Origin: Candidatus Solirubrobacter pratensis
GTDB taxonomy: Bacteria > Actinomycetota > Thermoleophilia > Solirubrobacterales > Solirubrobacteraceae
Direction: 5' to 3'
NCBI RefSeq assembly: GCF_000425945.1
Contig: NZ_AUEK01000003.1
Span: 1 to 64,000 of the forward strand
Length of the DNA: 64,000 nt
This document shows, piece by piece, positions 15,347-30,171 of the stretch. A model generated the notes under the pieces. It saw only the letters and a list, made by a program, of their open reading frames with translations. It did no database searches and had not been told where the DNA came from. The position numbers and the translations under genes are program-made. Position 1 is the first letter of the stretch; every line of letters begins with the position of its first letter.

Positions 15347-16264
15347 TCAGCCGGCGCTTGACCTGACTCCGACGCGGTCGAGCTGCGCCGACAGCAACCG
15401 TCCGGCTCTGTCCAGCGCCGCCGTCGCTTCGTCGAGGATCGGGTGATAGGCCTGGAAGACGTGGGGGACCCCGGGGGTGATGTCGAGCGTGACCTCGACG
15501 TCGGCGGTGATGGCTTGCTGCGCGAGGCGGATGGCGTCGTCGAGGAGCACCTCGTGCGTTCCGGCCTGGATGATCATGGGCGGGAGGCCGGAGAGGTCGG
15601 CGAAGATGGGGCTGATGAGGGCGAGGGCGGCGTCTTGTCCCGAGGTGTAGTCGGGGATTCGGGCTTGGAGGGCTTCGCGGCTGAGGAGCGGGTCGAGCTT
15701 GCTCTTGGTGTCCATGGTCGTCCCGGCCAGGGTGAGGTCGGCGTACGGTGACATGACCAAGGCGGCGGCCGGCAGGGGCAGCCCGTGCTCGCGGGCGTTG
15801 ACCAGGGTGGCGATGGCGAGTCCGCCGCCGGCGGACTCTCCCGCCAGGACGATGTCCGAAGGGGCGATGCCGTTGTTCAGGAGCGCTTCATACGCTGCAA
15901 GGGCGTCGTCGACCGCTGCCGGGTAGGGGTGCTCGGGGGCGAGCCGGTAGTCGACGGAGATGGCCTTGGCCTGCGTCCGCCGGCCGACCTGCGAGGCCAG
16001 CTCGGCGGCGAGGAACGCGTCTCCCAGCACGTACACGCCGCCGTGGAAGTAGAGGACGACGTTGCGGGGTTCGATGCCGTCGACGGTGATCTCGGCGGTC
16101 GGGACGCCGCCCAGTGTGGCTGCGGTCACGGTCACGTCGGCGGGCAGCGGCTGCGCCGACAGCAGCTCTCGGAGCAGTCGGCGTTGCTCGTTGACGTCGC
16201 TGCCGGCGGGGAAGGCGGACTGGCGCAGGATCGCGTCGAGGGTCTCTCGCTGCTCGGTGCTCAC
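15347..16264 (-). CDS. Alpha/beta hydrolase, hormone-sensitive-lipase (GDXG) family
   Basis: Soluble esterase of 305 residues. The oxyanion-hole motif YFHGG (residues 92-96) and the nucleophile elbow GESAGG (Ser in GDXG position) are present, with the acid/His pair expected in the C-terminal part (His in TPGVPHVFQAY). YRLAPEHPYPAAVDDA is the classic HSL-family segment. It likely cleaves short-chain esters or lactones. It is the distal gene of a minus-strand cluster with the DHA2 exporter (40-bp gap) and the GMC oxidoreductase, suggesting shared transcription and a common substrate or product. Confidence 0.88.
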   Translation of the reverse strand: MSTEQRETLDAILRQSAFPAGSDVNEQRRLLRELLSAQPLPADVTVTAATLGGVPTAEITVDGIEPRNVVLYFHGGVYVLGDAFLAAELASQVGRRTQAKAISVDYRLAPEHPYPAAVDDALAAYEALLNNGIAPSDIVLAGESAGGGLAIATLVNAREHGLPLPAAALVMSPYADLTLAGTTMDTKSKLDPLLSREALQARIPDYTSGQDAALALISPIFADLSGLPPMIIQAGTHEVLLDDAIRLAQQAITADVEVTLDITPGVPHVFQAYHPILDEATAALDRAGRLLSAQLDRVGVRSSAG

Positions 16265-16304: not shown

Positions 16305-17864
16305 CTACGGACGCGGACGGGCGACCGTGTCGCGTACGCGGTGGCCCCATGTGGCGAGGCGCGTCAGGTAGCCGCAGTAGGGCGCGCCCGGGCAGCGCGC
16401 GACCGACATCGCGATGGTCGCGATGTGGGCGTCCTGCGGCTCGCGGCGGCGGCCCGGGAGCAGGACCAAGGCCAGCACCGCGGCGGCGGCGCACAGGATC
16501 GCGGCAACGACGAACGCTCCGGTGAAGCCGTGCGTCAGCGCCGCGGCCGGCGTCGATCCGCCGTCGAGCGCGTTCGTGATCCGTGACGTCGAGATGGCCG
16601 ATAGGACGGCGAGGCCCAGCGACCCGCCGACCTGCTGGGTCGTATTGAGCAGACCCGAGGCGAGACCCGAGTCCTCGGCCGCGACGCCGGTCGTCGCGGC
16701 GATCGTGATCGGCACGAAGGCCATGCCGAGCCCGATGGCCATGACGATCATCGCGGGCAGGACGCGACCGGCGTAGTCGCCGTCGGGCTGCAGGCGGGTG
16801 AACAGCGCGAACCCGACGGTCGCGATCAGCAGCCCGAGGACGAGCACCGGCTTGGGCGTGAGGCGGTCGACCACCTGCGAGGCGAGCGCGGAGCTGGCGA
16901 TCAGCGTGAGGCTGAGCGGCAGGTAGGCGACGCCGGTCTTGAGCGCGTTGTAGCCGAGCACCTGCTGCAGGTACAGCGTGCAGAAGAAGAACACGCAGAA
17001 CAGCGCGGCGGCGACGAGCAGCATCGTCGCGTCGGCGGCCGCGAGGCTGCGGTTGGAGAAGATGCGCAGCGGGACCAGGGGGTTCTCGTGGCGGCGCTCG
17101 ATCCACACGAAGCCGACCAGCAGCACGGCGGACACCGCGAGGCCTACGAGCGTCCGCGCTGACCCCCAGCCCCAGTCGTTGGACTTGATCAGCGTGAAGA
17201 CGAGCGCCATCGTGCCCAGCGTGATGGCCGTCGCGCCCCCGAGGTCGTAGCCGTCGCGGACGCCCTCGGCACGGCTCTCGGCGAGCGACCGCCGCGCCAG
17301 CACGAGGACCGCGGCGCCCATCGGCAGGTTGACGAAGAAGACCCAGCGCCAGCTGAGCAGCTCGACGATCGCGCCCCCGAGCAGGAGGCCGACCGCGCCG
17401 CCGGCGCCGGCGATCGCGCCCCAGACGGCAAGCGCCCGGTTGCGCTCGGGCCCCTCCGCGAACGTCGTGAGGATGATCGACAGCGCCGCCGGCGAGACCA
17501 GCGCGCCGCCGAGTCCCTGCGCGCCGCGGGCGATCAGCAGCGTCGCCTCCGACTGCGACACCCCGCAGACGAGCGATGCGCCCGCGAACAACGAGATGCC
17601 GGCGATGAACAGGCGACGACGACCGAGTCGATCGGCCGCGCGCCCGCCGAGCAGCAGGAACCCGCCGAAGATCAGCGTGTACGCGTTGAGCACCCACGAC
17701 AGGCTCTGCTCGGAGAAGCCGACGTCGCGCTGGATGCTCGGCAGCGCGACGTTCACGACACTCGCGTCGAGCACCACCATGAACTGGGCCACCGCGACGA
17801 TGGCGAGCACCGCGTTGGGGCTCACCCGGACTGGGTTGGTAGGGGCGACTGTGACGTCGGACAT
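16305..17864 (-). CDS. DHA2-family (EmrB/QacA-type) MFS drug exporter
   Basis: A 14-helix proton-driven exporter of 519 residues. The DHA2 signature is clear: FMVVLDASVVNVALPSIQ in helix 1, motif A GGRAADRLGRRRLFIAG, and motif C-like GAIAGAGGAVGLLLGG in helix 5. The C-terminal tail after helix 14 is long (REPQDAHIATIAMSVARCPG). It is directly between the GMC oxidoreductase (10-bp gap) and the HSL hydrolase in the same direction. The pairing suggests export of a substrate or product of those enzymes (inference). Confidence 0.9.
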   Translation of the reverse strand: MSDVTVAPTNPVRVSPNAVLAIVAVAQFMVVLDASVVNVALPSIQRDVGFSEQSLSWVLNAYTLIFGGFLLLGGRAADRLGRRRLFIAGISLFAGASLVCGVSQSEATLLIARGAQGLGGALVSPAALSIILTTFAEGPERNRALAVWGAIAGAGGAVGLLLGGAIVELLSWRWVFFVNLPMGAAVLVLARRSLAESRAEGVRDGYDLGGATAITLGTMALVFTLIKSNDWGWGSARTLVGLAVSAVLLVGFVWIERRHENPLVPLRIFSNRSLAAADATMLLVAAALFCVFFFCTLYLQQVLGYNALKTGVAYLPLSLTLIASSALASQVVDRLTPKPVLVLGLLIATVGFALFTRLQPDGDYAGRVLPAMIVMAIGLGMAFVPITIAATTGVAAEDSGLASGLLNTTQQVGGSLGLAVLSAISTSRITNALDGGSTPAAALTHGFTGAFVVAAILCAAAAVLALVLLPGRRREPQDAHIATIAMSVARCPGAPYCGYLTRLATWGHRVRDTVARPRP

Positions 17865-17874
17865 GGCGAGCAGC

Positions 17875-19407
17875 TCAGACGATCGGAGTCGCGTGAACTC
17901 GACGCCGAGGCCCGCTCGTGTAGACGGCCCTCGCGATCCGCTCGGCGATCATGATCGTCGTGGGGTTGATCGCCACCGATGGAACGTCCGGGATGATCGA
18001 TGCGTCGACCACACGGAGCGCATCGGTCCCGTTCACCGCGCCAAGCGAGCCCACCACCGCCCACGGGTCCTGGGCACCGCCCATGGGCGCAGTCGCGGTG
18101 GGGTGCCCGTAGGACGCGAGGTTGGACGCGATGGCGTGGGCGAGCTGAACGTCGGAGACTGCGTCGCCGGGCAGGATCTCGAGCTCGAGGAACTGCGCGA
18201 GTGCCGGGTTGCGGGCGATCCTGCGGGCCAGCCTCACGCCTTCGAGCATCCGGCGCGCGTCACGGTCTTCGGCGAGGAAGTTGCAGTCGATCTCAGGCTG
18301 CTCCCGCGGGTCGCGGCTGCGCAGCGTGAGGGTTCCGCGCGAGTCGGGCTTGGCGACGGCGACGCTCAGCGCGATCGATCCTCCGGTCGGGCTGTACTGG
18401 GGCGGCATCAGGTGCGTGACCGCGATGTGGAGGTCCAGTTCGTCGCCTCGAGCCTCGTTGGACGCTGTCCAGAGCAGGGCGCCGACCGCCGGCCGCATGT
18501 CGAGCGCATCCGTCTTGAGGGCGTAGGCGTTGTAGTAGAAGGGCTGGTCGTGCAGACGCTGCCCGACGGGTAGATCGGCCACGACCTCGATGCCGAGCTG
18601 CGCCAGGTCGGCCGCCGGACCGACGCCGGATCGCAGCAGGATCGCCGGGGTGCCGTATGCGCCGCCGGAGAGGATCACCTGGCCTGCAGGGATCTCGGTG
18701 CCGTCTGCCGTCAGGACGCCGGTCGCGCGGCGCCCGGCGAACAGGACGCGATCGACGAGCACGTCGCCAGAGATCTTCAGGTTGAGGCGGTTGCGAACCT
18801 CTTCGGTGAGATACACGAGGCCGGTGTTCTGCCGCACACCGTCGATGACGTCGACGGGGGACGCGCCGACGCCACTCGGATCCGGCGCGTTGAAGTCCTC
18901 GACCCGGGCGAACCCCTCCGCGACCGTCGCGTCGATGAACCCGCGCAACGAGGTGGTCAGATCGCCGTACCGCTGCTGCCGGATCGGGAACGGTCCCGTG
19001 CGTCCGCGGTCCGCGTCGTCGCCGTCGGGCGTGTTCTCCATCTCCCGGTAGGTTGCGAAGACGTCCTCGATCGTCCAATCGTCAAGGCCATGACGTTGCC
19101 AATCGCGGATGTCGCTCGGTCGTGCGCGCATCGCCACCGTGGCGTTGTGAGCCGAGCAGCCGCCGAGCACCTTTGCCCGCGCCGCCAAGATCTCCGGTGA
19201 GGCAGGCCCGCCGCGGGCGGTGAAGCCCCACTCGTGCTCGGGGTTGGCCGGCACGTGTGCCGCATCGGTCAGGTCGTCTGGATAGCCGTCGACGCCGTAG
19301 GCCCTGCCTGCCTCGAGCAACAGGACCGAGCGGGTCGGATCCTCGCTCAGGCGGTTGGCGAGGACGGCACCGGCTGCGCCTCCTCCCACAATCACCACGT
19401 CGGACAT
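17875..19407 (-). CDS. GMC-family FAD-dependent oxidoreductase
   Basis: A 510-residue flavoprotein of the glucose-methanol-choline family. The N-terminal FAD-binding motif is VIVGGGAAGAVLANRLSE, followed by the acidic LLLEAG end of strand 2. GGCSAHNATVAMRARPSD fits the GMC signature near the flavin. The C-terminal active site has the expected His in YGHPTATAPMG and the Asn in AINPTTIMIAERIA. The substrate is an alcohol, not identifiable from sequence; BetA-type choline oxidation is not specifically supported. It heads a three-gene minus-strand cluster with the exporter and hydrolase. One copy of the island palindrome lies just upstream, between it and the LuxR gene. Confidence 0.9.
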   Translation of the reverse strand: MSDVVIVGGGAAGAVLANRLSEDPTRSVLLLEAGRAYGVDGYPDDLTDAAHVPANPEHEWGFTARGGPASPEILAARAKVLGGCSAHNATVAMRARPSDIRDWQRHGLDDWTIEDVFATYREMENTPDGDDADRGRTGPFPIRQQRYGDLTTSLRGFIDATVAEGFARVEDFNAPDPSGVGASPVDVIDGVRQNTGLVYLTEEVRNRLNLKISGDVLVDRVLFAGRRATGVLTADGTEIPAGQVILSGGAYGTPAILLRSGVGPAADLAQLGIEVVADLPVGQRLHDQPFYYNAYALKTDALDMRPAVGALLWTASNEARGDELDLHIAVTHLMPPQYSPTGGSIALSVAVAKPDSRGTLTLRSRDPREQPEIDCNFLAEDRDARRMLEGVRLARRIARNPALAQFLELEILPGDAVSDVQLAHAIASNLASYGHPTATAPMGGAQDPWAVVGSLGAVNGTDALRVVDASIIPDVPSVAINPTTIMIAERIARAVYTSGPRRRVHATPIV

Positions 19408-19462
19408 CGGCTTCGCTCTCCTCAGATCGACGGCCCGTATCGTGGCCGGCGAACGGGTGAGG

Positions 19463-19486
19463 CGTCATCGCCGGATTCCGGTGACT
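19463..19486 (-). promoter_or_regulatory. Island palindrome copy A
   Basis: Read on the minus strand this is TCACCGGAATCCGGCGATGA. It starts one base after the stop of the LuxR gene and 55 bp upstream of the GMC oxidoreductase start. The core ATCRCCGGAATCCGGYGAT type is a near-perfect 19-bp dyad, and the same element recurs at 25087, 28903 and 29360. Confidence 0.65.
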
Positions 19487-22238
19487 ACGACAGTCGTTCC
19501 GCGAGCTGCGTGCGCGACTTGACGCCGAGCTTGCGGAACGCCTTGCGCAGGTGATACTCGACCGTGCTGGCGCTGATGAACAGATGCGCCGCGATCGCTC
19601 GGTTCGTCTCCCCTTGTCCGGCAAGGCGAGCGATCTGCGTCTCCTGTGGGGTCAGCTGATCCAGGGTGTTCACGGTCCGCTTGCGGGCACGCTCACCTGT
19701 CGCCTCCAGCTCGAGCCGTGCGCGCTCGGCGAACGCCTCCATCCCGGCGTCTCGGAAGAACTCGTGGGCGGTTCGCAGTTGCTCGCGCGCATCGAGACGT
19801 CGGCGCTGACGCCGGAGCCACTCGCCATAGAGGAGGTGGGTACGCGCGAGCTGAACGCGGATGCGTGTGCGACCGAGCCTGCTGATCGCCTCCAGGTAGA
19901 GCGCTTCGGCATCATCGCCATCGCTGAGCAATGCGCCTAGGCGAGCCTCTATCCCCAGCGCCCAGTCGGTGCCGGCGGCGCGAGTCGTCTCTTGGATCCG
20001 CTCGAAGGCACGCCGGGCACGCTCCGGCTGGCCGAGCCGAACGGCCGCCTCGATCAGCTCGGTCAGCGCCCAGATCGCCGGCCCTTCGGAGTAGAAGCGC
20101 TCGGCTGGAAGGACCGCGGCCAGCGCAGCTTCGTAGCGGCCGAGCCCGTTGTTGAGGCCTCCGCTGAGAAACTCGGCGTTCGTCAGGGCGATCCCCTCCC
20201 CCCGAGCCTCAGCGTCGCCGATCGTGGTTCGGATCAACTCCGAGAATTCGGCCTCGCGACCGCGCAGCGCGGCCAGCGACAGCGCGCCACTCGGGTCGGC
20301 GGCAACGCCGATCGCCTCGGTTGCCGCGCTCTGTTCCTCCGCGAGGATTGCGGCGGTTCTCAGCTCACCGAAGAACGCGTACACCGCGATGGCGGAACCG
20401 AGAAGGAACGCCAGCGCGGAGAGCGCACCCGTTCGGCGCGCCAGTTCGAGCTGCCGGGTGGACAGCACCATCCAGGCGTCGTCGTCCCACATGAACAACG
20501 AGATCAAGCTGGCAAACCACAACCACCGGGCGTCATTCGGCGACAGGTCGGACTCACGCTGGAAGGCGTCCAGCGCCTCCTTGAGCAATGGCGCCGCAGC
20601 CGCATATCCCTCGGTGGCTTGCACCGCCAACCCCTGTAGGAGCAGATCAGACGGCTGCGGCTTCTCAGGCCGCGGGCCGGCAAGCGCCGCCTCGCTGATC
20701 TCGACCAAGTCGCCGCCTCCGATCAAGCGGCCGGCGAACGTCGCCGCAGACAGGGCGTCCAGGTAGGTCGCCCGTGCGAGGCTGGGATCCACCTCCTGGA
20801 GCTCGCGCGCGGCCGCGAGCAGCAGCGGGGCGGCGTCGCTGCCTCGGCGCGCTGCGAACGCGACCTGAGCGCGCAGCAGGTGCGCGTGGGCAGCCAGAAC
20901 GTCGTCGACCGCAGCGCCGGACTCGGCGGTTCTCAGAAGCTCGAGCGCGTCGTCGAGCGCGCCGGCTTGTAATTTCGTCTCCGCGGCGACCAGCGCGCGT
21001 CGCGCGCGGCGCCTGGGTTCGGGTGAAAGGGCGACCGCGCGCTCGAGGAAGGCTCCGGCGGCGGCGAGACCGCCACGTGCCTGCGCGCGTGCCGCGGAAC
21101 GTTCAAGCTCGGCTGCAACCTCCTCATCAGGCTTGCCCGCGGCCTGCGCGCGGTGCCAGGCGCGCCGATCCGGGTCGATCTCCCGGTCGGTCGCCTCGGC
21201 GAGGGCGCGGTGAACCTCGCGTCGCGCGTTCGGCTCGGCGGATCTGTAGACGGCCGAGCGAACCAGTGGGTGGCGGAACGCCACTCGGGGAGACAGCGAG
21301 AGCATCTCTGCCGACTCGACGGCGTCCGCCGCCGACTCGGGGATCCCGAGCCGTTCGGCCGCCCGCCAGACCAGTGCCGGATCGCCCACGGGGTCAGCCG
21401 CCGCGACGAGCAGCAAGCGCCGCGCAGCGGGCGGCAGCTTCGCCAGCCGGCGCGTGTAGCGGTCCTCGATCCCGGCGGACACGGGCGCAGTCGTCGGCAG
21501 GCCGAATCCCCCCGCGAGCTGGGTCGGGCTCAGCCCGCGCGGCAGCTCCAGCAGGGCGAGCGGGTTCCCGCGCGTCTCAACGACGATCCGCTCGAGCACG
21601 CGTTCATCCAGCCGGACGGGCATGACCGAATCCAACAGCGCTCGCGCGTGCGTGCGCTCCAAAGCGGCGACGTGGAGCTCCGGCAAGCCCGAGAGCGTCG
21701 CGCCGAGCTCGCGCGTCGCGAACACGAGCGCGATCTTCTCCGCGACGAGACGACGCGCCACGAAGGCCAGGGTCCGCGCGGACGCACTGTCGAGCCATTG
21801 CGCATCGTCAACGGCGCAGACGAGTGCCTGCTCCTCGGCGGCTTCGGCAAGCAGGCCGAGGACCGCCAGGCCAACCAGGAATCGATCCGGCGCGGGTCCC
21901 GTCCTGAGTCCGAAGGCGACCTCGAGCGCGTCGTGCTGGGGCCGCGGCAACCGCTCCCTGAGATACAGGAACGGCGAACACAGCTGCTGAACCGCCGCGA
22001 ACGGGAGCTCCATCTCGGCCTCGACCCCGACGGTCCGGGCGATCCGAAGCTCGCGCGCGGCCTCGACCGCGTACTCGAGCAGTGCGGTCTTGCCGACGCC
22101 CGCCTCGCCATGCATGACCAACACGCCGCCACGCCCCGCGCGCAGGCCGTCCAGCACCCGGTCGAGCATCTCGCGCTCGCGCTCGCGGCCGAACAACGTC
22201 CTCCCCGAGCTCAGAACCGGTGGCGGCGCTCCGCTCAT
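19485..22238 (-). CDS. Large LuxR-family (LAL) ATPase regulator
   Basis: A 917-residue transcription factor of the LAL/MalT-like class. The N-terminal AAA/NACHT-type ATPase has Walker A GEAGVGKT (residues 44-51) and Walker B-like ALVCAVDDAQWLD. A long helical TPR-like middle follows. The C-terminal LuxR helix-turn-helix reads LTPQETQIARLAGQGETNRA, then HLFISASTVEYHLRKAFRKL. Such proteins bind an inducer in the middle region and activate nearby operons in an ATP-dependent manner. It lies upstream of, and codirectional with, the GMC-exporter-hydrolase cluster; the palindrome between them is a plausible target. A second LAL gene lies 270 bp away in the opposite direction. Confidence 0.92.
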   Translation of the reverse strand: MSGAPPPVLSSGRTLFGREREREMLDRVLDGLRAGRGGVLVMHGEAGVGKTALLEYAVEAARELRIARTVGVEAEMELPFAAVQQLCSPFLYLRERLPRPQHDALEVAFGLRTGPAPDRFLVGLAVLGLLAEAAEEQALVCAVDDAQWLDSASARTLAFVARRLVAEKIALVFATRELGATLSGLPELHVAALERTHARALLDSVMPVRLDERVLERIVVETRGNPLALLELPRGLSPTQLAGGFGLPTTAPVSAGIEDRYTRRLAKLPPAARRLLLVAAADPVGDPALVWRAAERLGIPESAADAVESAEMLSLSPRVAFRHPLVRSAVYRSAEPNARREVHRALAEATDREIDPDRRAWHRAQAAGKPDEEVAAELERSAARAQARGGLAAAGAFLERAVALSPEPRRRARRALVAAETKLQAGALDDALELLRTAESGAAVDDVLAAHAHLLRAQVAFAARRGSDAAPLLLAAARELQEVDPSLARATYLDALSAATFAGRLIGGGDLVEISEAALAGPRPEKPQPSDLLLQGLAVQATEGYAAAAPLLKEALDAFQRESDLSPNDARWLWFASLISLFMWDDDAWMVLSTRQLELARRTGALSALAFLLGSAIAVYAFFGELRTAAILAEEQSAATEAIGVAADPSGALSLAALRGREAEFSELIRTTIGDAEARGEGIALTNAEFLSGGLNNGLGRYEAALAAVLPAERFYSEGPAIWALTELIEAAVRLGQPERARRAFERIQETTRAAGTDWALGIEARLGALLSDGDDAEALYLEAISRLGRTRIRVQLARTHLLYGEWLRRQRRRLDAREQLRTAHEFFRDAGMEAFAERARLELEATGERARKRTVNTLDQLTPQETQIARLAGQGETNRAIAAHLFISASTVEYHLRKAFRKLGVKSRTQLAERLS

Positions 22239-22323
22239 CCGGCGTAAGGATGACCGAGTGGCGACGCTCGGCCAAGGACTAAGGATTCAAGGATTCGAAC
22301 GCCCATCGGTAACGTCACGATCC

Positions 22324-22503
22324 ATGGCCGTGGAGGCTGACGACAGAGGCCGGCTCTCGGGGAAGGTGTGCGTGATCACCGGCACGGGCGGAAGCATGGG
22401 CCGTGCGACGGCTCTGGCGTTCGCTCGGGAAGGCGCGTCGGTCGTTGGCTTCGACCTGACCGTCGATCCCGCGGGGGCGACCGTGGAGTCGATGGCGGGA
22501 TGA
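22324..22503 (+). pseudogene. N-terminal fragment of a short-chain dehydrogenase
   Basis: ATG 22324 opens 59 codons: MAVEADDRGRLSGKVCVITG, then the NAD(P)-binding TGTGGSMGRATALAFAREG and GASVVGFDL. The frame stops after GATVESMAG, in the place where family members continue with the third strand, so about 190 residues including the catalytic Ser-Tyr-Lys are missing. It sits between the two LAL regulators, and its stop is 8 bases before the second one. A deletion probably removed the rest when the LAL gene came to lie here. Confidence 0.7.
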
Positions 22504-22510
22504 AAGTCTG

Positions 22511-25084
22511 GTGACCGCGGGTCTTGACCCGGTCGCCGTCTCGAGCCTGCTCGAACGGCAAGAGCTCCTTCGGCTGCTGGAACGCGCCGTGACCAAGTGC
22601 GTCACGGTCATCTCGGCGCCGCCGGGAAGTGGGAAGACCTCGCTGTTGCGCGTCTGGGCAGCGCGCTCGACCGGCCATCGTCGCGTCGCGTTCGTGTCCG
22701 TGGACCGCGACGAACGAGATGCGGAGCGGTTCTGGCGCGCCGTCGTGGACGCACTCGCTCCCGAGACCCGAATTGCGCCACTCGACGCCGATCAGCTCGT
22801 CGAGAAGGTCCTGTCCGAGCTCGCCGAGCAGGTCGATCCGGTCGTGGTGATCGACGATCTCCACGAGCTGGCGTCGGCCGATGCCCTGAGGCAGCTCGAG
22901 CATCTGCTGGCGGTTCTGCCGAGCGCTGCGCGCGTGGTCCTGTCGTCTCGCCGGGATCCGCCGATCAGGCTGCACCAGCTGAGGCTGGCCGGCGAGGTGA
23001 CGGAGATCCGCGACGGCGATCTCCGGTTCACGGAGCGCGAGACGCGCGAGCTGCTCGCCGCGTCCGAGATCCGTCTGTCCGACACGGGGGTGGCCGCCCT
23101 GCGTCAGCGCACGGAGGGCTGGGCGGCCGGCCTGCGGCTGGCCGTGCTCGCGCTCAGCGGCCACCCCGATCCCGAGCAGTTCGTGGCCGAGTTCTCGGGG
23201 ACCGACCGGGCGATCGGGGAGTACCTGATGGCCGAGATGCTCGAAGGCCAGCCGAGCGAGGTTCGGAGCATGCTGTTGCGAACCTCGCTGGTCGACCGGA
23301 TGAATGCCGAGCTCGCCGACCTGCTGGCCGGCCGGCAGGGCTCGGAGCAGATGCTGCTGGCGCTGGAGGAGGCCAACGCGTTCGTGGTGTCGCTGGACGC
23401 TCAGCGCACCTGGTTTCGCTACCACCATCTGCTGGCGGATTTCCTCCGCCTCGAGCTGCGCCGGACCTCAGCGGAGGAAGTGCCTGAGCTTCACCGCCGG
23501 GCCGCGCGGTGGTTCGCCGACAACGGGGACGTCGTCGAGGCGGTGCGGCACATGCTCGCGGCCGGGGATTGGCCCGAGGCGGCCCGGATGCTCGCCGACC
23601 ACCTGTTCAGTCTGACGCTCGACGGCAAAGAGGGCGCGATCGGCTCGCTGCTCCAGTTGTTCCCCAGCGGCGCCTCGGCTGACCATCCCGATCTGGCCGT
23701 GGCACGCGCGGCAACGCACCTCGCCCAGGGACGATTGGAGCAAGCGGCCGCTCAGCTGGCAGTGGCCGAGTCTCAGGTCGACAACACGCGCCTCGCCGTG
23801 GCCATCGCCTCTCTCCGGCTGGCGCTGGCACGGCGCAGCGGCCGATTCACTGAAGTGATCGAGCAGGTGAACCTGCTCGACGCTTCGATCGCGGACGAAC
23901 CGATCGCGATGAGTAGTGAGCTGCGGGGAGTCGCGTTGATGAATCTCGGGATCGTCGAGACCTGGTCTGGGCGACTCGCTGACGCTGAGCGGCACCTGGC
24001 CGAGGGAGCCGCGCTCGCCCAGGCGATCGGCCGGCCGTACCTGGAGGTCGTGTGCCGGGCGCATCAAGGGTTCCCGTCGAAGCGGGTCTCGGTCGCGTCC
24101 GCACGTGAGCGCGGCCGAGAAGCGGTGGCGCTCGCCGAGCACCATGGGTTTGACGAGCGGCCGATCCTCGCGCCGGCGTTCGGTGCGGTCGGCGGCATGG
24201 CGATCTGGATGGGCGAGTTCGACGAGGGCGAGCGCTGGCTACGCCGGGCGCGGGAGGTCGCCGCGGCCGACGTCGACCCGGCGCCCGCAGTGCTTCTGCA
24301 TGTGGCGACGGGCATGTTGCACGCGGGTCGCGGGCAGCATCGATCCGCACTCGACGAGTTCGCGGCGGCGGCGCGTGCGCAGTCGCGGCTCACCGGCGCG
24401 CACGCGCTCGCGCCGCGCATCACCGGATGGCTCGCGTCGATGCAGGCTCGCGTCGGGATGCTCGACGAGGCGCGCGCGACGCTCGCTGGATTCGCCGCCG
24501 ATACGGAGCGAATGGGTGCCCTCGCCAACGCGCGTGCCGTGATCAGCCTGGCGGAAGGGGACCCGGCCGCGGCGGTGGATGTACTGCGAGAGATCCGGTC
24601 GGGCGCGGTCGTTCCCCCGTTCACGCGCGTTGAAGCGCATCTGCTCGCGGGCACTGCGCACCTGAAGTTGGGCGAGCGCGACGCCGCGGTTGCCGCTGCC
24701 GAGGCAGCGCTCGCGGACGCCGAGCCGGACCGGCTGATCTTCCCGTTTGCACTGACCGAGGCGGCGGAGCTGCTCGGCGCGCTCCCGCGTCACGCCACGG
24801 CGCATGGCGCGCTGCTCGCCGACATCGTCGACGTGCTGCGAGGCACGCCGGCGACGAGCCCCGACCGAGAGCAGAGCGACGAGCTGAGCCCGAGCGAGCT
24901 CCGCGTACTGCGATATCTCCCGACCAACCTGACACGGCCCGACATAGCGCGCGAGCTGTACGTCTCCATCAACACGGTCAACACGCACGTCCGCAACATC
25001 TACTCCAAGCTCGGTGCGCACGATCGCTCATCCGCCGTCGCCCGCGCACGGGAGCTACGGCTCCTCTCAGCCGGACGCGCCTGA
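22511..25084 (+). CDS. MalT/LAL-type LuxR-family ATPase regulator
   Basis: An 857-residue regulator of the MalT subgroup. GTG at 22511 starts the conserved N-terminus. Walker A is APPGSGKTS (residues 36-44), Walker B VVVIDDLHEL, and the MalT-type arginine region PSAARVVLSSRRDPP follows. The middle is helical TPR-like repeats with FRYHHLLADFLR, a MalT landmark. The C-terminal HTH is LSPSELRVLRYLPTNLTRPD, then ELYVSINTVNTHVRNIYSKL. It is unlike the other LAL regulator in length and N-terminal domain, so the two are not a recent duplication. One copy of the island palindrome starts two bases after its stop, ahead of the small gene and molybdo-hydroxylase operon. Confidence 0.92.
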   Translation: MTAGLDPVAVSSLLERQELLRLLERAVTKCVTVISAPPGSGKTSLLRVWAARSTGHRRVAFVSVDRDERDAERFWRAVVDALAPETRIAPLDADQLVEKVLSELAEQVDPVVVIDDLHELASADALRQLEHLLAVLPSAARVVLSSRRDPPIRLHQLRLAGEVTEIRDGDLRFTERETRELLAASEIRLSDTGVAALRQRTEGWAAGLRLAVLALSGHPDPEQFVAEFSGTDRAIGEYLMAEMLEGQPSEVRSMLLRTSLVDRMNAELADLLAGRQGSEQMLLALEEANAFVVSLDAQRTWFRYHHLLADFLRLELRRTSAEEVPELHRRAARWFADNGDVVEAVRHMLAAGDWPEAARMLADHLFSLTLDGKEGAIGSLLQLFPSGASADHPDLAVARAATHLAQGRLEQAAAQLAVAESQVDNTRLAVAIASLRLALARRSGRFTEVIEQVNLLDASIADEPIAMSSELRGVALMNLGIVETWSGRLADAERHLAEGAALAQAIGRPYLEVVCRAHQGFPSKRVSVASARERGREAVALAEHHGFDERPILAPAFGAVGGMAIWMGEFDEGERWLRRAREVAAADVDPAPAVLLHVATGMLHAGRGQHRSALDEFAAAARAQSRLTGAHALAPRITGWLASMQARVGMLDEARATLAGFAADTERMGALANARAVISLAEGDPAAAVDVLREIRSGAVVPPFTRVEAHLLAGTAHLKLGERDAAVAAAEAALADAEPDRLIFPFALTEAAELLGALPRHATAHGALLADIVDVLRGTPATSPDREQSDELSPSELRVLRYLPTNLTRPDIARELYVSINTVNTHVRNIYSKLGAHDRSSAVARARELRLLSAGRA

Positions 25085-25086
25085 AC

Positions 25087-25109
25087 ATCACCGGAATCCG
25101 GCGGTGTCG
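25087..25109 (+). promoter_or_regulatory. Island palindrome copy B
   Basis: ATCACCGGAATCCGGCGGTG follows the LAL stop codon by two bases and lies 31 bp before the small gene at 25140. It matches copy A at 18 of the first 19 positions. As RNA it could also form a short hairpin (CACCGG/CCGGCG). Confidence 0.65.
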
Positions 25110-25139
25110 ACTCACTCGGTCGCGCTGCACGATGCTCGC

Positions 25140-25394
25140 ATGGACACATCGCCGGGCCTGTACACGTTCCGTATCAAGGGCCGGCTCGGGGCCACGGGTC
25201 TGTCGGCCTTTCCCTCGATGGTGTCTCAGCCGGACGGCGGCGCGACCGTGCTCACCGGGTTGCTCGAGGATCGGTCCGCGGTGTTCGGCGTCATTGCGCA
25301 GATCGAGGCGCTGGGTCTCGAGCTCCTCGAGCTGCGGCGGATCCAGCCAGGACCCAGGACGCCTGAAACACGAATTCCAGAAGCACCGCTATGA
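25140..25394 (+). CDS. Small conserved hypothetical protein
   Basis: An 84-residue soluble protein. ATG 25140 begins MDTSPGLYTFRIKGRLGATG; the rest forms a compact beta-alpha-beta pattern ending QIEALGLELLELRRIQP. Short proteins of this pattern are recalled in many actinobacteria as unnamed regulators or ligand-binding domains encoded beside oxidoreductases, but no function is known. The C-terminal 14 residues are Pro-rich and may be variable. It lies just after the LAL gene and before the molybdo-hydroxylase. Confidence 0.6.
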   Translation: MDTSPGLYTFRIKGRLGATGLSAFPSMVSQPDGGATVLTGLLEDRSAVFGVIAQIEALGLELLELRRIQPGPRTPETRIPEAPL

Positions 25395-25488
25395 GCAAGA
25401 CGACGTTCCTCGGCGAGAAGCCGATCAACCGGGAATCACCAGCTTCGGGTGACGACGGCTCACCTGGGTCGCGGCGAGCCTGCGGCGT

Positions 25489-28086
25489 ATGCAACTCGTT
25501 GTCAACGGCGCCGATGTCGAGATCGACGACCGGCACGCGAAGACCCCGCTGCTGTGGGTTCTGAGGGACGTCCTCGGCCTGCGTGGCACGAAGTTCGGGT
25601 GCGGCGCCGGCTTCTGCGCGGCCTGTACCGTCTTGGTCGACGGCCGCAACGTGAAGTCCTGCCAGACCACGACTGAACGCGCGGTCGGCAAGGCCGTGAC
25701 GACGGTCGAGGGAGCCTCCGGTCCGGTCGTCGACGCGGTCCGCGACGCGTGGCACCGCGGCAACGTCGTGCAGTGCGGCTACTGCCAGCCCGGGCAGACC
25801 CTGGCCGCGGTGTCGTTGCTCGGGTCCGATCCCTCTCCCGACGACCCGAAGATCGACGAGTGGATGAGCGGGAACCTGTGCCGCTGCGGCACCTATCCGC
25901 GAATCCGAGCCGCCATTCACGAGGCCGCGGACACGCTCGCCGCGGGCGATGATCCGGCTCCGCTGGTCGCCCCGCCAGAGCTCGACGTGGGCCGCCTGAC
26001 GCCCGAGGAGGCGAGCGACCCCGTCCATCCGTACATCCGGATCCATGCCGACGGGACGGTCGTGGCGTACTCGAGCCAGATCGAGATGGGGCAGGGGATC
26101 CACACGGGGCTGGCGACGATCGTCGCCGAGGAGCTCGACGCGGACTTCGATTCGGTCCGGGTCGTCAACGCCGCGAACGGAGCCGGGCCGAACGGCGACG
26201 TGTACGGGAATCCCGCCGCCGGCGGCGGCCTCCAGCTCACGGGCGCGTCCAATTCGATGCGGGGGTACTGGATCCGGTACCGGCTGGCGGCTGCGCAAGC
26301 ACGGGCGCGACTCGTCGCCGCCGCGGCCGAGGCGTGGGATGCGCCCGCGGTTGAGCTCGAGGTCGAGAACGGCGTGGTGCGCGATAAGCGCGGCCGGCAG
26401 GCAGCCTTCGCCGAGCTGGCGGCGCGCGCCGAGCAGCTCCCGGTTCCGGAAGGCGTGGAGCCCAAGGACGCGGCCGACTACAAGTTGATCGGGCGCGAAG
26501 GGCGGTTGCGAGTCGACGCGGTACCGAAGATCCTCGGCGCCACCCATTTCACGATCGACCTCAGCCTCCCGGGGATGCTGACGGCGGTCGTCCTGCACCC
26601 GCCGAGGTTCGGCGCCACGGTTGCCGCGGTCGATGACCGGGCGGCGCTCGCCGAGCCCGGGGTGACTGCGGTCGTCCCGATCGACGAGGGCGTCGCGGTC
26701 GTCGCCGAGGCCATCGCCGACGCGCAGCGCGGACTGCGTGCCCTGGTCGTGGAGTGGGATGAGACTGACGCCGAGCGGCGGAGCACCACCGAGCTGCTGG
26801 CCGAGCACATGCGGCTGCTCGAGTCGGGCGAGAAGGCCGTGACGAGCCGGGACGACGGCGACGTCGACCGTGCCCTGGCCGATGCGGGCTCGACGATCGA
26901 CGCGACGTACGCGCTGCCGTACCTCGCCCACGCCGCGATGGAGCCGAACAACGCGGCCTGCCGGATGCGCGAGGACGGCGTGCTCGACGTGTGGGCCGCG
27001 ACCGAGGGCCCCCAGTACGTGAAGATGAACGCCGCCTCGATCGCCGGCGTCGACATCGAGCAGGTCGAGGTGCACGTCACCTTCGCCGGCGGATCGTTCG
27101 GACTGCACTCGAGCGCCGAACGCGACCCGGTGGCCGAAGCCGTGCAGATCGCGCGCGCGCTCGACTTCAAGCACCCGATCAAGGTGCAGTCGCTGCGCGA
27201 GGAGGAGTTCAAGGTCGGTCGCTACCGGGCGATGGCCGTCCACCGGGTGAGGGCCGGAGTCGATGCGGACGGTCGCCTCAGCGCTTGGCATCAGCAGATC
27301 GTCGCCGCACCGACGTCCGTCAATCTCCCGTTCGTCCGTGACGTCATGTTCACGAACGGCGTGGACTTCTTCACCACGACCGGCGCGGTCGACCCGCCCT
27401 ACGCCGTCGAGAACTTCCGGGTCGAGTCGACCAACTTCGAGTCGCGGATCCCGACGATGGTCTGGCGCTCGGTCGGCAACTCGCACACCGAGTTCGCGCG
27501 CGAGTCGGCGATCGACGAGCTCGCGATCGCCGCCGGCCGCGATCCCGTCGACCTGCGACGAGAGCTGCTGGCCGGCAGCCCGCGCACGCTGCGCGCGCTC
27601 GAGCTCGCGGCGGAGGCCGCCGGCTGGGGAACCCCGCTGCCAGAGCGGCGGGCGCGCGGGATCACTTCCTCCGGCTTCATCGGCCACAGCGCCAACGTGA
27701 CGGAGATCTCGCTCGACGACCGCGGGCGCGTCCGTGTCGACCGGATCGTGTTCGCGCTCGACTGCGGCAGAAACGTCAACCCCGACCTCATCCGCGCGCA
27801 GGTCGAGGGTGGGCTGCTGTGGGGGCTGAGCGCCGCGGCGTGGGGCGAGGTCGTTCTCGGCGAAGGCGGCGAGATCGTCACCCAGAACTTCGACCGCTAC
27901 CCGATCCTGCGGATGCGCTCCGTTCCGCGGATCGAGATCCACCTGATCGAGTCGACCGAGGCGCCGACCGGCGTCGGCGAGGTCTCTGTCCCCTCGGTCG
28001 CGCCGGCCCTGGCGAACGCCATCGCCGCGCTCACCGGCACCCGAATCCGGAATCTCCCCTTCTCCAAGACCATCAAGATCGCCTAG
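25489..28086 (+). CDS. Fused molybdo-hydroxylase, isoquinoline 1-oxidoreductase-like (IorA-IorB)
   Basis: An 865-residue enzyme in which the small 2Fe-2S subunit and the large molybdopterin subunit are one chain. Residues 1-150 hold eight ligand cysteines: 38, 43, 46, 58 (plant-ferredoxin type) and 96, 99, 131, 133 (CGYCQPG...CRCGTYP). From about residue 180 follow the molybdenum domains: QIEMGQGIHTGLATIVAEEL, AGGGLQLTGASNSMRGY, an ALDEH_OXIDASE-type segment LPYLAHAAMEPNNAACRM, FAGGSFGLHSS, and the active-site Glu in TGVGEVSVPSVAPALANAI. No FAD subunit is encoded nearby, as in isoquinoline oxidoreductases, which pass electrons to other acceptors. It would hydroxylate an aldehyde or N-heterocycle. 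No Tat or Sec signal is seen, so a cytoplasmic location is likely. A CDGSH gene follows 12 bp later. Confidence 0.9.
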   Translation: MQLVVNGADVEIDDRHAKTPLLWVLRDVLGLRGTKFGCGAGFCAACTVLVDGRNVKSCQTTTERAVGKAVTTVEGASGPVVDAVRDAWHRGNVVQCGYCQPGQTLAAVSLLGSDPSPDDPKIDEWMSGNLCRCGTYPRIRAAIHEAADTLAAGDDPAPLVAPPELDVGRLTPEEASDPVHPYIRIHADGTVVAYSSQIEMGQGIHTGLATIVAEELDADFDSVRVVNAANGAGPNGDVYGNPAAGGGLQLTGASNSMRGYWIRYRLAAAQARARLVAAAAEAWDAPAVELEVENGVVRDKRGRQAAFAELAARAEQLPVPEGVEPKDAADYKLIGREGRLRVDAVPKILGATHFTIDLSLPGMLTAVVLHPPRFGATVAAVDDRAALAEPGVTAVVPIDEGVAVVAEAIADAQRGLRALVVEWDETDAERRSTTELLAEHMRLLESGEKAVTSRDDGDVDRALADAGSTIDATYALPYLAHAAMEPNNAACRMREDGVLDVWAATEGPQYVKMNAASIAGVDIEQVEVHVTFAGGSFGLHSSAERDPVAEAVQIARALDFKHPIKVQSLREEEFKVGRYRAMAVHRVRAGVDADGRLSAWHQQIVAAPTSVNLPFVRDVMFTNGVDFFTTTGAVDPPYAVENFRVESTNFESRIPTMVWRSVGNSHTEFARESAIDELAIAAGRDPVDLRRELLAGSPRTLRALELAAEAAGWGTPLPERRARGITSSGFIGHSANVTEISLDDRGRVRVDRIVFALDCGRNVNPDLIRAQVEGGLLWGLSAAAWGEVVLGEGGEIVTQNFDRYPILRMRSVPRIEIHLIESTEAPTGVGEVSVPSVAPALANAIAALTGTRIRNLPFSKTIKIA

Positions 28087-28098
28087 AGAGGCCCCGCC

Positions 28099-28296
28099 AT
28101 GCCCGACATCACCATCATCCCCAGCGAAAACGGTCCCTACATCGTCTCCGGCCCGGTAGCCATCGTCGCGCCCGACGGGCATGTGATCGACCACCCCGAT
28201 CCGGTGGCGATGTGCCGCTGCGGCCACTCCTCCAACAAGCCGTTCTGCGATGGCACGCACGCCACGATCGACTTCGACGGGACCCTCGCGAACTGA
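28099..28296 (+). CDS. CDGSH iron-sulfur domain protein
   Basis: A 65-residue mitoNEET-like protein. The 2Fe-2S motif is complete: Cys39, Cys41, Cys50 and His54 in [16 protein letters not shown]. The N-terminal half is a small beta-sandwich. It lies 12 bp after the molybdo-hydroxylase and 4 bp before the reductase gene, so it is surely cotranscribed. A role as electron carrier or cluster donor for the hydroxylase is plausible but inferred from position only. Confidence 0.93.
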
Positions 28297-28300
28297 TCCG

Positions 28301-28898
28301 ATGCAATCAGCGAACGTCAAGAGCGTCGGCATCATCGGCGCGGGCGGGATCGGCCAGGCGATGGCGCGGATCGCGCGCCGTGCCGGCCGGCCGGTCATGA
28401 TCGCCAACCGGAAAGGGCCGCAGTCCGCTGACCTCACTGGTGCAGGAGCTCGGCGACGGGGTGTCGGCCGGGACGGTCGATGAAGTCGCAGGCGCGGACA
28501 TCGTGGTGCTCGCGGTGATGTGGCCGGACGTCCCGCAGGCCGTCGATCGGCCGGCATGGGAGGGACGGATCTTGATCGACCCGACCAACGACTTCGACCC
28601 CAGCGACCTCAACGGGCGCACGTCCAGCGAAGTCGTCGCCGATCTCGTCGCCCCAGCTCGCGTGGTGAAGACCGCCAACATCTTCGCGGCCGACGTGCTC
28701 GCATCCGACCCACGCCAAGCCGGGGGTCAGCGTGTGATGTTCCTGTCAGGCGACGACGCCGACGCCAAACATGAGGTGGGCGGGCTGTTCGAGGCTGCCG
28801 GATTCTTCGTCATCGACCTCGGTGGGCTCCGCGAGGGGGGACAGATGCAGCAGTTCGGCGGTCCGCTCGCCGGCGAGAACCTGATCCGCTTCGCTTGA
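28301..28898 (+). pseudogene. NADPH-dependent F420 reductase-like gene with one-base insertion
   Basis: Encodes a ~198-residue Rossmann protein of the NADP/F420 oxidoreductase group. The first frame (ATG 28301) has VGIIGAGGIGQAMARIARR and the basic ANRKGPQS segment for NADPH. At 28421-28430 (CAGTCCGCTG) an extra C shifts the frame; without it the reading is GPQSLTSLVQELGDGV. The second frame continues with ADIVVLAVMWPDVPQAVD, ILIDPTNDF and VVKTANIFAADVLASDP to the end FGGPLAGENLIRF. Fixing one base gives a full-length protein, so a consensus error is as likely as a true mutation. It ends the molybdo-hydroxylase-CDGSH operon. Confidence 0.8.
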
Positions 28899-28902
28899 GT
28901 GG

Positions 28903-28925
28903 ATCACCAGGATCCGGCGATGTCG
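28903..28925 (+). promoter_or_regulatory. Island palindrome copy C
   Basis: ATCACCAGGATCCGGCGATG begins four bases after the reductase stop. It lies between the end of the + operon and the 3' end of the minus-strand alcohol-dehydrogenase remnant, so it is not upstream of a gene start on either strand; this weakens a pure operator reading for this copy. Confidence 0.6.
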
Positions 28926-28952
28926 GCTCACGACGCGTGATCGTCCCGCCGG

Positions 28953-29231
28953 TCACGGGATGAGGACGATCTTCCCCGCGATGTGACCGGCCTCCAGCTC
29001 GGTGTACGCCGCTCGAACCTCGTCGAGCGGTACACGCGCTGGATCGGCACGACGAGGTCACCCGCCGCTATCGCCTCTGCCAGTTCGGCCAGGGTCGCGG
29101 CGCTCGCCGCGGCCGCGCCGCCTTCGCCCTTGACGCCGTGCTTCTCGATCGAGGGGAAGTCGACGATCGTGTCGATCCGATCGGAGGCGATGCCGAGCTC
29201 GAGCGCCAGTTCGACGTAGCCGCCCCCGACG
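28953..29231 (-). pseudogene. C-terminal fragment of a medium-chain (zinc-type) oxidoreductase
   Basis: On the minus strand the reading GGGYVELALELGIASDRIDT, then GEGGAAAASAATLAELAEAI and GDLVVPIQRV matches the end of quinone-oxidoreductase-like MDR proteins. After ...IQRVY the frame is off by one base; restoring a C near 29030 gives RVYPLDEVRAAYTELEAGHI and the terminal AGKIVLIP with a stop at 28953-28955. The N-terminal ~230 residues are absent (unrelated sequence upstream of 29231). It is a dead fragment regardless of the one-base problem. Confidence 0.65.
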
Positions 29232-29359
29232 AGGCACCGGCGAGGTCCGACCCCTGGCCGCTGGGAAAGGTCGCGGGGAAGATCGCGCGAACCAGGCCCT
29301 CGCGGATCTTCCCCTCGCTCGGATTGATGCCGGCGGGTCGCTTGCTGGGAAGTCACGGA

Positions 29360-29382
29360 ACCACCGGGATCCGGCGATGACG
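29360..29382 (+). promoter_or_regulatory. Island palindrome copy D
   Basis: ACCACCGGGATCCGGCGATG matches the other copies at 17-18 of 19 core positions. It lies 52 bp before the chosen start of the SDR gene. The element itself contains an in-frame ATG (29377-29379). Confidence 0.6.
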
Positions 29383-29433
29383 GAGCACCCGCGCGGTGGC
29401 GAGAATTCACACCCCGGCCGAATCGAGGATTCG

Positions 29434-30171
29434 ATGCGCAAGATGCGAGCCAAGCAGCGAAGTGCGGTTGTGTTCGGAGCGCGCAATCTGGGTCGCGCGG
29501 TCATCGAGCTGCTGGTGAGCGACGGCTGGGCGGTGACCGGGGTCGCGCGGTCGCGACGCACGCTGGACGGCGTCAGCGAGTCCGGCGCGCTCGCGCTGGA
29601 GGCCGACGTGACAAACCCCGCGAGCGTGTACGGCGTGCTCGAGCAGGCGGCCGCTGCTCACGGTGGAGTCGATCTCGTGGTGAACGCTGCGGCCGCTTAC
29701 GGCGGCGACCGCTCCGGGCCCTTCGGCGGCGGCCCGATTGCCGAGGCCGACCTCGACGGCTTCGACTCGTGGGCTGCGGCTCCGGCCCGCGCCGCGTTCT
29801 CGTTCTTGTCCGCCGGCGGGCAATTCGCGATCGCGCAGGGCCGCGCAGCGACGCTGGTGCAGGTCACCGGCGGCTCGGCACGGCGCGCGCTGCCGGGCCG
29901 CGGCCTGTGGGCGGCCGGATCGTTCGGCGTGCGAGCGATCACCAACGCCGCCGCGCTCGAGTTGCGCCCCCGCGGCATCCAGGTCACGTTGCTCATCGTC
30001 GACGCGGGCATCCAGCCGCTCGACGGGTCCACACGCGGCGGTGTCTCGCCGGAAGCCCTGGCCGATCCGCGCAGGATCGCCGACGCCGTCCTCTTCCTGG
30101 CCAACCAGGACGCGCGCTCCGCGTCACACGAGCTCCAGCTCACCCCGCTCGCCGAGAGCTGGACGCCCTGA
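29434..30171 (+). CDS. Atypical short-chain dehydrogenase lacking the catalytic Tyr-Lys
   Basis: A 245-residue Rossmann protein (ATG 29434 with GAGG 8 bases upstream; an in-frame ATG at 29377 within the palindrome would add 19 unlikely residues). Dinucleotide binding: SAVVFGARNLGRAVIELLVS, then VARSRRTLD (basic, NADP-like). LEADVTNPASV and LVVNAAAAYGG are the expected later motifs. The active-site region is LVQVTGGSARRALPGRGLWA, AGSFGVRAITNAAALELRPR: the YxxxK Tyr and Lys are missing. It may be a non-catalytic or redox-sensing SDR, or use different chemistry. It is the last gene of the palindrome-marked island. Confidence 0.78.
   Translation: MRKMRAKQRSAVVFGARNLGRAVIELLVSDGWAVTGVARSRRTLDGVSESGALALEADVTNPASVYGVLEQAAAAHGGVDLVVNAAAAYGGDRSGPFGGGPIAEADLDGFDSWAAAPARAAFSFLSAGGQFAIAQGRAATLVQVTGGSARRALPGRGLWAAGSFGVRAITNAAALELRPRGIQVTLLIVDAGIQPLDGSTRGGVSPEALADPRRIADAVLFLANQDARSASHELQLTPLAESWTP

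Follow-up and report, generated by a model that had tools for sequence, protein, structure and literature searches.

The redox island and its recurring element

The 64,000-nt stretch of Candidatus Solirubrobacter pratensis DNA analysed here (contig NZ_AUEK01000003.1, positions 1 to 64,000; 'the window' denotes this whole stretch) carries an island of genes for oxidoreductases, an exporter and an esterase, which also contains the genes of two LuxR-type regulators, designated LAL1 and LAL2 (Table 1). A short sequence element occurs five times in the island (sites A to E). A previous sequence-only reading of the same DNA had described sites A to D as near-palindromic dyads, and had proposed that they are operators of one of the two LAL proteins and tie the island into a single regulon, with a putative role in catabolism or detoxification. 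The results reported below support this proposal, in that the element is conserved ahead of orthologous genes, and they favour LAL2. In our view, the element is quite probably the promoter-operator of a local regulon under the control of LAL2, a predicted activator of the MalT type.

Table 1. Element copies and genes of the island, in order of position.
Feature	Position	Position including -10 hexamer	Strand	Remarks
Alpha/beta-hydrolase esterase	15347-16264		-	Pfam
MFS exporter	16305-17864		-	Pfam
GMC oxidoreductase	17875-19407		-	Pfam; first gene after site A
Site A	19456-19484	19439-19484	-	Three boxes, 0 mismatches in 15 box letters; -10-like CACGAT in phase; upstream of GMC-MFS-esterase
LAL1, LuxR-type regulator, 917 aa	19485-22238		-	Pfam AAA_16 and GerE; probably not the binder
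LAL2, MalT-type STAND/LuxR regulator, 857 aa	22511-25084		+	Pfam AAA_22, AAA_16, GerE; proposed binder
Site B	25088-25116	25088-25133	+	Three boxes, 2 mismatches; -10-like CACGAT; predicted start 25140 (small-gene ATG)
Small protein, 84 aa	25140-25394		+	No Pfam or NCBIfam match; recurrent partner of LAL2-type genes
Site E	25436-25464	25436-25481	+	Three exact boxes; -10-like GAGCCT; predicted start 25488
Fused [2Fe-2S]/molybdopterin hydroxylase, 865 aa	25489-28086		+	Pfam; putative target of E
CDGSH iron-binding protein	28099-28296		+	Pfam; downstream of molybdo-hydroxylase
NADP/F420-type oxidoreductase	28301-28898		+	Open in two pieces, with the frame changing around 28420-28440
Site C	28904-28932		+	Dyad intact, third box changed to TCACG, in-phase -10 lacking; putative relic or orphan operator
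Site D	29361-29389	29361-29406	+	Three boxes, 2 mismatches; -10-like GAGAAT; upstream of SDR
SDR	29434-30171		+	Pfam; putative target of D

Architecture and rarity of the element

The four elements described before lie where the sequence-only reading had placed them. With up to three mismatches, their core, CACCGGAATCCGGCGATG, has five matches in the window (one of these being site B on the opposite strand); shuffled sequences average 0.18, and none of 100 shuffles reached five. No further copy had been noticed in the window; there is in fact a fifth, site E, directly upstream of the molybdo-hydroxylase gene, and a scan for three boxes with up to two mismatches returned exactly sites A to E (mean 0.99 over 80 other spacings).

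The dyads are real, but what is conserved extends beyond them on one side: another TCACC box and then a hexamer resembling a -10 make the unit asymmetric. The exact sequence CCGGAATCCGG is present only in A and B. An alignment of the window sites with those from related genomes (17 rows, including a doubtful one from genome G089) gave the consensus TCACC-N7-GGYGA-N7-TCACC, followed after 11 bp by NANNNT. It should be noted that the third box belonged to the search pattern for some of the aligned sites. In the eight sites found through the dyad alone, i.e. A to D and four from a dyad scan of related loci (which gave eight matches in four loci, four of them not counted as sites), the third box is TCACC at 37 of 40 letters.

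The spacing of the boxes is sharply defined. When the gaps were left free in a search across the family, the spacing 7/7 was found in at least 27 rows among the 150 matches listed; when GGTGA was required it was found in at least 23, compared with at most 5 for each other spacing, again among the matches listed. Exact boxes have 54 matches in 29 of 399 genomes of the class, the reversed pattern only one.

Across the 6.64-Mb genome, the 18-bp core is matched best by A to D, all four within 10 kb, so that the element is not a dispersed repeat; two further places match with two mismatches. Hundreds of dispersed copies, which had been named beforehand as an outcome that would speak against an operator family, were not encountered: the genome-wide counts, which come from pattern searches with mismatches, were 18 matches with up to three mismatches, versus 5 for the reversed pattern.

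Promoter features

The letters A42 and T46 of the -10-like hexamer were not part of the pattern used to retrieve the sites. Of 53 exact sites, 33 have both letters at this phase, while the 27 other offsets give 0-5 sites each. Because these unused letters sit at a fixed phase, the element appears to be a promoter. In B and E, counting 7 nt on from T46 leads to a start at 25140, the start codon itself, and at 25488, one base ahead of the ATG (25489), respectively, so that the corresponding mRNAs are probably leaderless. Open-frame starts are in excess at site positions 53 and 54 in a set from a public genome collection (7 and 8, against 1.64 per position), and a weak excess is seen in the Thermoleophilia set (3 and 2, against 0.90). 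With the start so inferred, the box centres fall at about -50, -38 and -26, which puts the third box between -35 and -10, and the 17-bp dyad overlaps the -35 region with a constant spacing to the start, as in operators of the MalT type.

Conservation beside orthologous genes

Related islands, whose proteins are 60-88% identical to those of the window, were found in four genomes (G035, G061, G062 and G202), and all four keep the element ahead of orthologous genes, the lack of which would have been a second point against the operator proposal. The element precedes the GMC gene in G061 and G062, the MFS gene in G035 and G202, the esterase gene in G035 and G062, the molybdo-hydroxylase gene in G035 and G061, and the SDR gene in G062 (SDR 88% identical to that of the window). 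It also precedes the small gene in G035, G061 and G202, each time 73 nt ahead of the domain, like site B. Judged from the translations, two other genes preceded by it are SnoaL-like (in G061) and metallo-hydrolase-like (in a further genome, G065). Gene order varies among the islands, and the element remains with its genes. Around site D, 31-45 bp align at 87-92% to G035, G061 and G062, whereas the flanking intergenic DNA does not.

The regulator

LAL2 has the composition of a LAL/MalT-type STAND protein of about 850-950 aa, with an N-terminal nucleotide-binding (Walker) domain (AAA_22/AAA_16) and a C-terminal LuxR-type helix-turn-helix (HTH) domain (GerE), both above cut-off, in 857 amino acids. 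Its relation to E. coli MalT extends beyond the HTH domain (27% identity over 442 columns, E 3e-36; E 3e-33 against the MalT structure chain 8bob), whereas LAL1 resembles MalT in the HTH only. On the other hand, LAL2 scores 250.4 bits against the MalT equivalog model NCBIfam NF003420, far below its cut-off of 537. The LAL2 system would work like a MalT regulon, but LAL2 is not MalT itself.

To which of the two regulators the element belongs was examined in loci picked purely by homology to one or the other (n = 29 each; flanks of 1.5 kb for LAL2). Sites with up to two mismatches were present in 15 of the 29 LAL2-chosen loci (23 sites, 19 with the -10 hexamer; ten wrong spacings gave 0-6), and 13 of these 15 loci lie outside the present island. 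Among the LAL1-chosen loci, only 3 of 29 had sites. Because of this difference, the sequence data point to the MalT-like LAL2, and not LAL1, as most likely the cognate regulator.

The view that LAL1, a LAL of the AAA_16 type, is the binder and LAL2 a mere neighbour draws on two genomes, G035 and G062, in which LAL1 orthologues adjoin sites; in the second of these, LAL2 was not detected. We consider this view unlikely, since two of the three site-bearing LAL1-chosen loci are these same orthologous islands, and the four sites found in them and in G071 equal the highest wrong-spacing control (0-4), though three of the four, those in G062 and G035, are exact. In addition, LAL2 (74% identity) and a site are present in G202, in which a search at 1e-50 finds no homologue of LAL1.

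The reverse comparison, from sites to genes, was made in six matched genomes, where a LAL2-type gene was present in 4 of 18 right-spacing regions and in 0 of 20 wrong-spacing regions, and a LAL1-type gene in 3 of the 20 wrong-spacing regions. The controls were 20 of the 26 wrong-spacing rows in these genomes (two were left out as near a real site, two as near a contig start, and two to hold n = 20). A LuxR-HTH profile matched in 22 of 50 right-spacing regions, four of which contain no exact site, versus 3 of 20 wrong-spacing regions.

Several observations do not fit well with control by LAL2. Boxes 1 and 3 are matched only partially in B and D. G062 has LAL1 (80%) and three sites with no LAL2 detected, on a contig that ends 369 bases upstream of LAL1, while G089 shows a weak match (three mismatches) without a LAL2 homologue, and several LAL2 paralogues (loci L280-L282) have no such site. 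No LAL2 homologue is found near the site in 14 of the 18 matched regions, nor in 69 of 80 loci from the public genome collection (80 loci listed, of 119 stretches), and the collection sites that do lie near a LAL gene are less regular, with 2 of 11 in the -10 phase and 4 of 11 one base off. Since many sites have no LAL gene nearby, these would have to be served in trans.

LAL2-like matches in the collection (11 of 80 loci, one of them through the HTH alone) include Dactylosporangium, Planosporangium and Conexibacter, and most of the other loci are, by their record titles, from Micromonospora. At those collection sites (loci L110-L189, mostly Micromonospora) that have no LAL gene in the locus, the -10 phase is kept in 57 of 68, a count that omits one locus with tandem copies, L137. 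By this phase, the Micromonospora matches are promoters and not noise, and they probably belong to another, related LuxR-type regulator with the same architecture; targets examined at such sites include BON-domain and SCP2 proteins. In the omitted locus (Myxococcales bacterium FL481, 2043-2298), there are five exact-pattern matches, four of them at 24-bp steps, which are probably a chance tandem repeat.

In a further group of loci (L131, L144, L168 and L179 from Dactylosporangium; L241 and L247), three-box elements stand ahead of FGE (sulfatase-modifying) genes, which are leaderless by position (site position 54) and adjoin LAL2-like genes, and elsewhere ahead of a sulfatase and an alkyl sulfatase.

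It is still less probable than binding by LAL1 that another regulator of the LuxR/NarL class uses the sites in trans. A candidate would be a protein like BldM, which is a response regulator not known to contain a STAND ATPase part. The Group I palindrome of Streptomyces BldM, TCACcCgnncGgGTGA, has a half-site, TCACC, identical to that of the element (available portion of PMC4125116), and the shared -10 phase of the Micromonospora-type sites (57 of 68, no LAL nearby) would also suit a regulator acting in trans. However, that palindrome measures 16 bp as opposed to the 17 bp and fixed spacing of the dyad, no third box was found described for BldM sites in the same portion of that paper, and the sites track LAL2-type genes, the five sites of the island being clustered around one.

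Finally, the copies could be a dispersed repeat, or form hairpins in transcripts near the ends of genes, with no regulator involved, but this is very improbable. Three copies do begin close behind a stop codon (0, 3 and 5 bases for A, B and C, in line with the distances of 1-4 bases given previously; no stop precedes D), and C sits between the ends of converging genes. However, the copies cluster in one island, keep a fixed -10 phase, stay with orthologous genes despite changed gene order and have a third box outside any hairpin, and the sequence read by eye has, after any copy, no T-run of the kind that follows the G+C-rich stem of an intrinsic terminator. For site C, a transcript hairpin or a module-boundary repeat had been thought the better fit. 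Because its boxes are present, with no -10 in phase and no T-run following, we prefer to regard it as a decayed or orphan operator.

A small partner protein

The 84-aa product of the gene behind site B has no match in Pfam or NCBIfam. Members of its family were found in 12 of the 29 LAL2-chosen loci, in none of the 29 LAL1-chosen loci and in none of the 20 control regions. The element lies within 330 bp upstream in 18 of 25 distinct members, two of the 25 being at a locus end where no upstream test is possible, while wrong-spacing tests were positive in 25 of 200. The element appears to drive this partner protein. Relatives in L053, L054, L264, L271, L263 and L356 share the pattern YEIRV...LELVEVRRL and adjoin LAL2-type genes, mostly with the element upstream.

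Paralogous modules

With the -10 hexamer included and up to two mismatches, the pattern has 14 matches in the genome of Ca. S. pratensis, versus one for the reversed pattern, and four of the 14 are A, B, D and E. A LAL2 paralogue at C6:397770 (contig and position) has one match about 0.1 kb away and another at 5 kb, and a paralogue at C10:9202 is flanked by two matches. Three matches with TCACGCG half-sites lie at C6:480 kb, where the order is, as in the window, a LAL2-like HTH stretch, the element and a small-protein gene. No LAL2 match was found in the stretch examined near the remaining three sites (C23, C2:227 kb and C11). Copies of the TCACG type are also present in genome G078, within 3 kb of its LAL2-like gene. 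In the second module at C6:480 kb (locus L356, G000:C6:471500-491400), at about 9284-11053, the LAL2-like HTH stretch (62% over 63 aa) lies in a 94-aa open frame.

The putative operator varies by module: TCACCGGRATCCGG in the window, TCACGCG at C6:480 kb and TCATCCCG at C10. TCATCC-type half-site variants occur at a paralogous module, whereas in the window the half-site is GGTGA/GGCGA and the GGATGA core is absent. A TCATC three-box pattern gave 2 matches over 396 genomes of the phylum and none for the controls, these being few matches.

Proposed mechanism and comparison with known systems

The following scheme draws on the general working mode of MalT. LAL2, charged with ATP and an inducer, would bind the three half-sites TCACC, inverted GGYGA and TCACC, which are equally spaced in a 12-bp register, and would bring RNA polymerase to a promoter with an NANNNT -10 and a weak, ATGACG-like -35. 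Site A would drive the GMC-MFS-esterase genes, B the small protein, E the molybdo-hydroxylase unit and D the SDR, with C as a decayed or orphan copy. We infer the binding and activation by LAL2, the inducer and the role of the small protein.

In Actinoplanes sp. SE50/110, MalT activates a 51-gene region through TCATCC-5nt-GGATGA, located 34.4 nt from the start, as demonstrated by deletion and overexpression (PMC7567727). According to the available portion of that paper, its operators resemble the present element in the 17-bp dyad beginning with TCA and ending with TGA, in the overlap with the -35 region, in the many copies per region and in the two MalT-like LuxR genes inside it (PMC7567727). 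They differ in the half-site (TCATCC, compared with TCACC(S) here) and in their targets, and no third box was found described for them in that portion (PMC7567727). For E. coli MalT, the same paper quotes the box GGGGA(T/G)GAGG. This box is alike in its GGNGA-type half-site, its orientation and its place near -38, and its regulator has the same general architecture; the malPp boxes, unlike the element described here, are not in a 12-bp register.

As far as can be judged from sequence, then, the geometry, position and logic of the putative regulon agree with what is already known from Actinoplanes. A description of the three-box element was not found in the available portions of PMC7567727, PMC4125116 and PMC3282765. 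The third box between -35 and -10, the operator variants in paralogous modules and the 84-aa partner protein are new relative to these systems.

Other features of the island

Between the two LAL genes, at 22324-22503, there is the start of an SDR gene without its remainder, and G035 has a longer SDR-like stretch at that place. On the minus strand, 28928-29410 resembles by eye the end of a quinone oxidoreductase, with no Pfam match. In view of these two remnants, the island seems to be losing genes. The split NADP/F420-type oxidoreductase gene is either a decayed gene or a sequencing error.

With a threshold of 1e-100, 3 of 146 genomes of the family have the molybdo-hydroxylase, that of Ca. S. 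pratensis among them, and the six other genomes of the genus give no match; this distribution suggests horizontal spread.

Implications

LAL regulators have been termed a poorly studied family (available portion of PMC3282765). They seem to be numerous in these bacteria; first-look searches with two queries gave 87-216 candidates per genome in the genus, six per genome being scored. The island may exemplify a recurrent and portable actinobacterial module, composed of a MalT-type STAND activator, a small partner (about 84 aa) and a promoter with three boxes, where the activator would also sit on the spacer that separates -35 from -10. Paralogous modules with operator variants of their own would then form insulated local regulons, the operator of each being readable from its neighbourhood; we rate the chances of this generalization as about even. 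How STAND activators would use a third box in the promoter spacer is a question of mechanism, and LAL regulators may have a modulator in the small partner, a concrete candidate for that role. Moreover, an operator-promoter signature with a fixed -10 would allow targets to be predicted from sequence and provide testable regulator-operator pairs.

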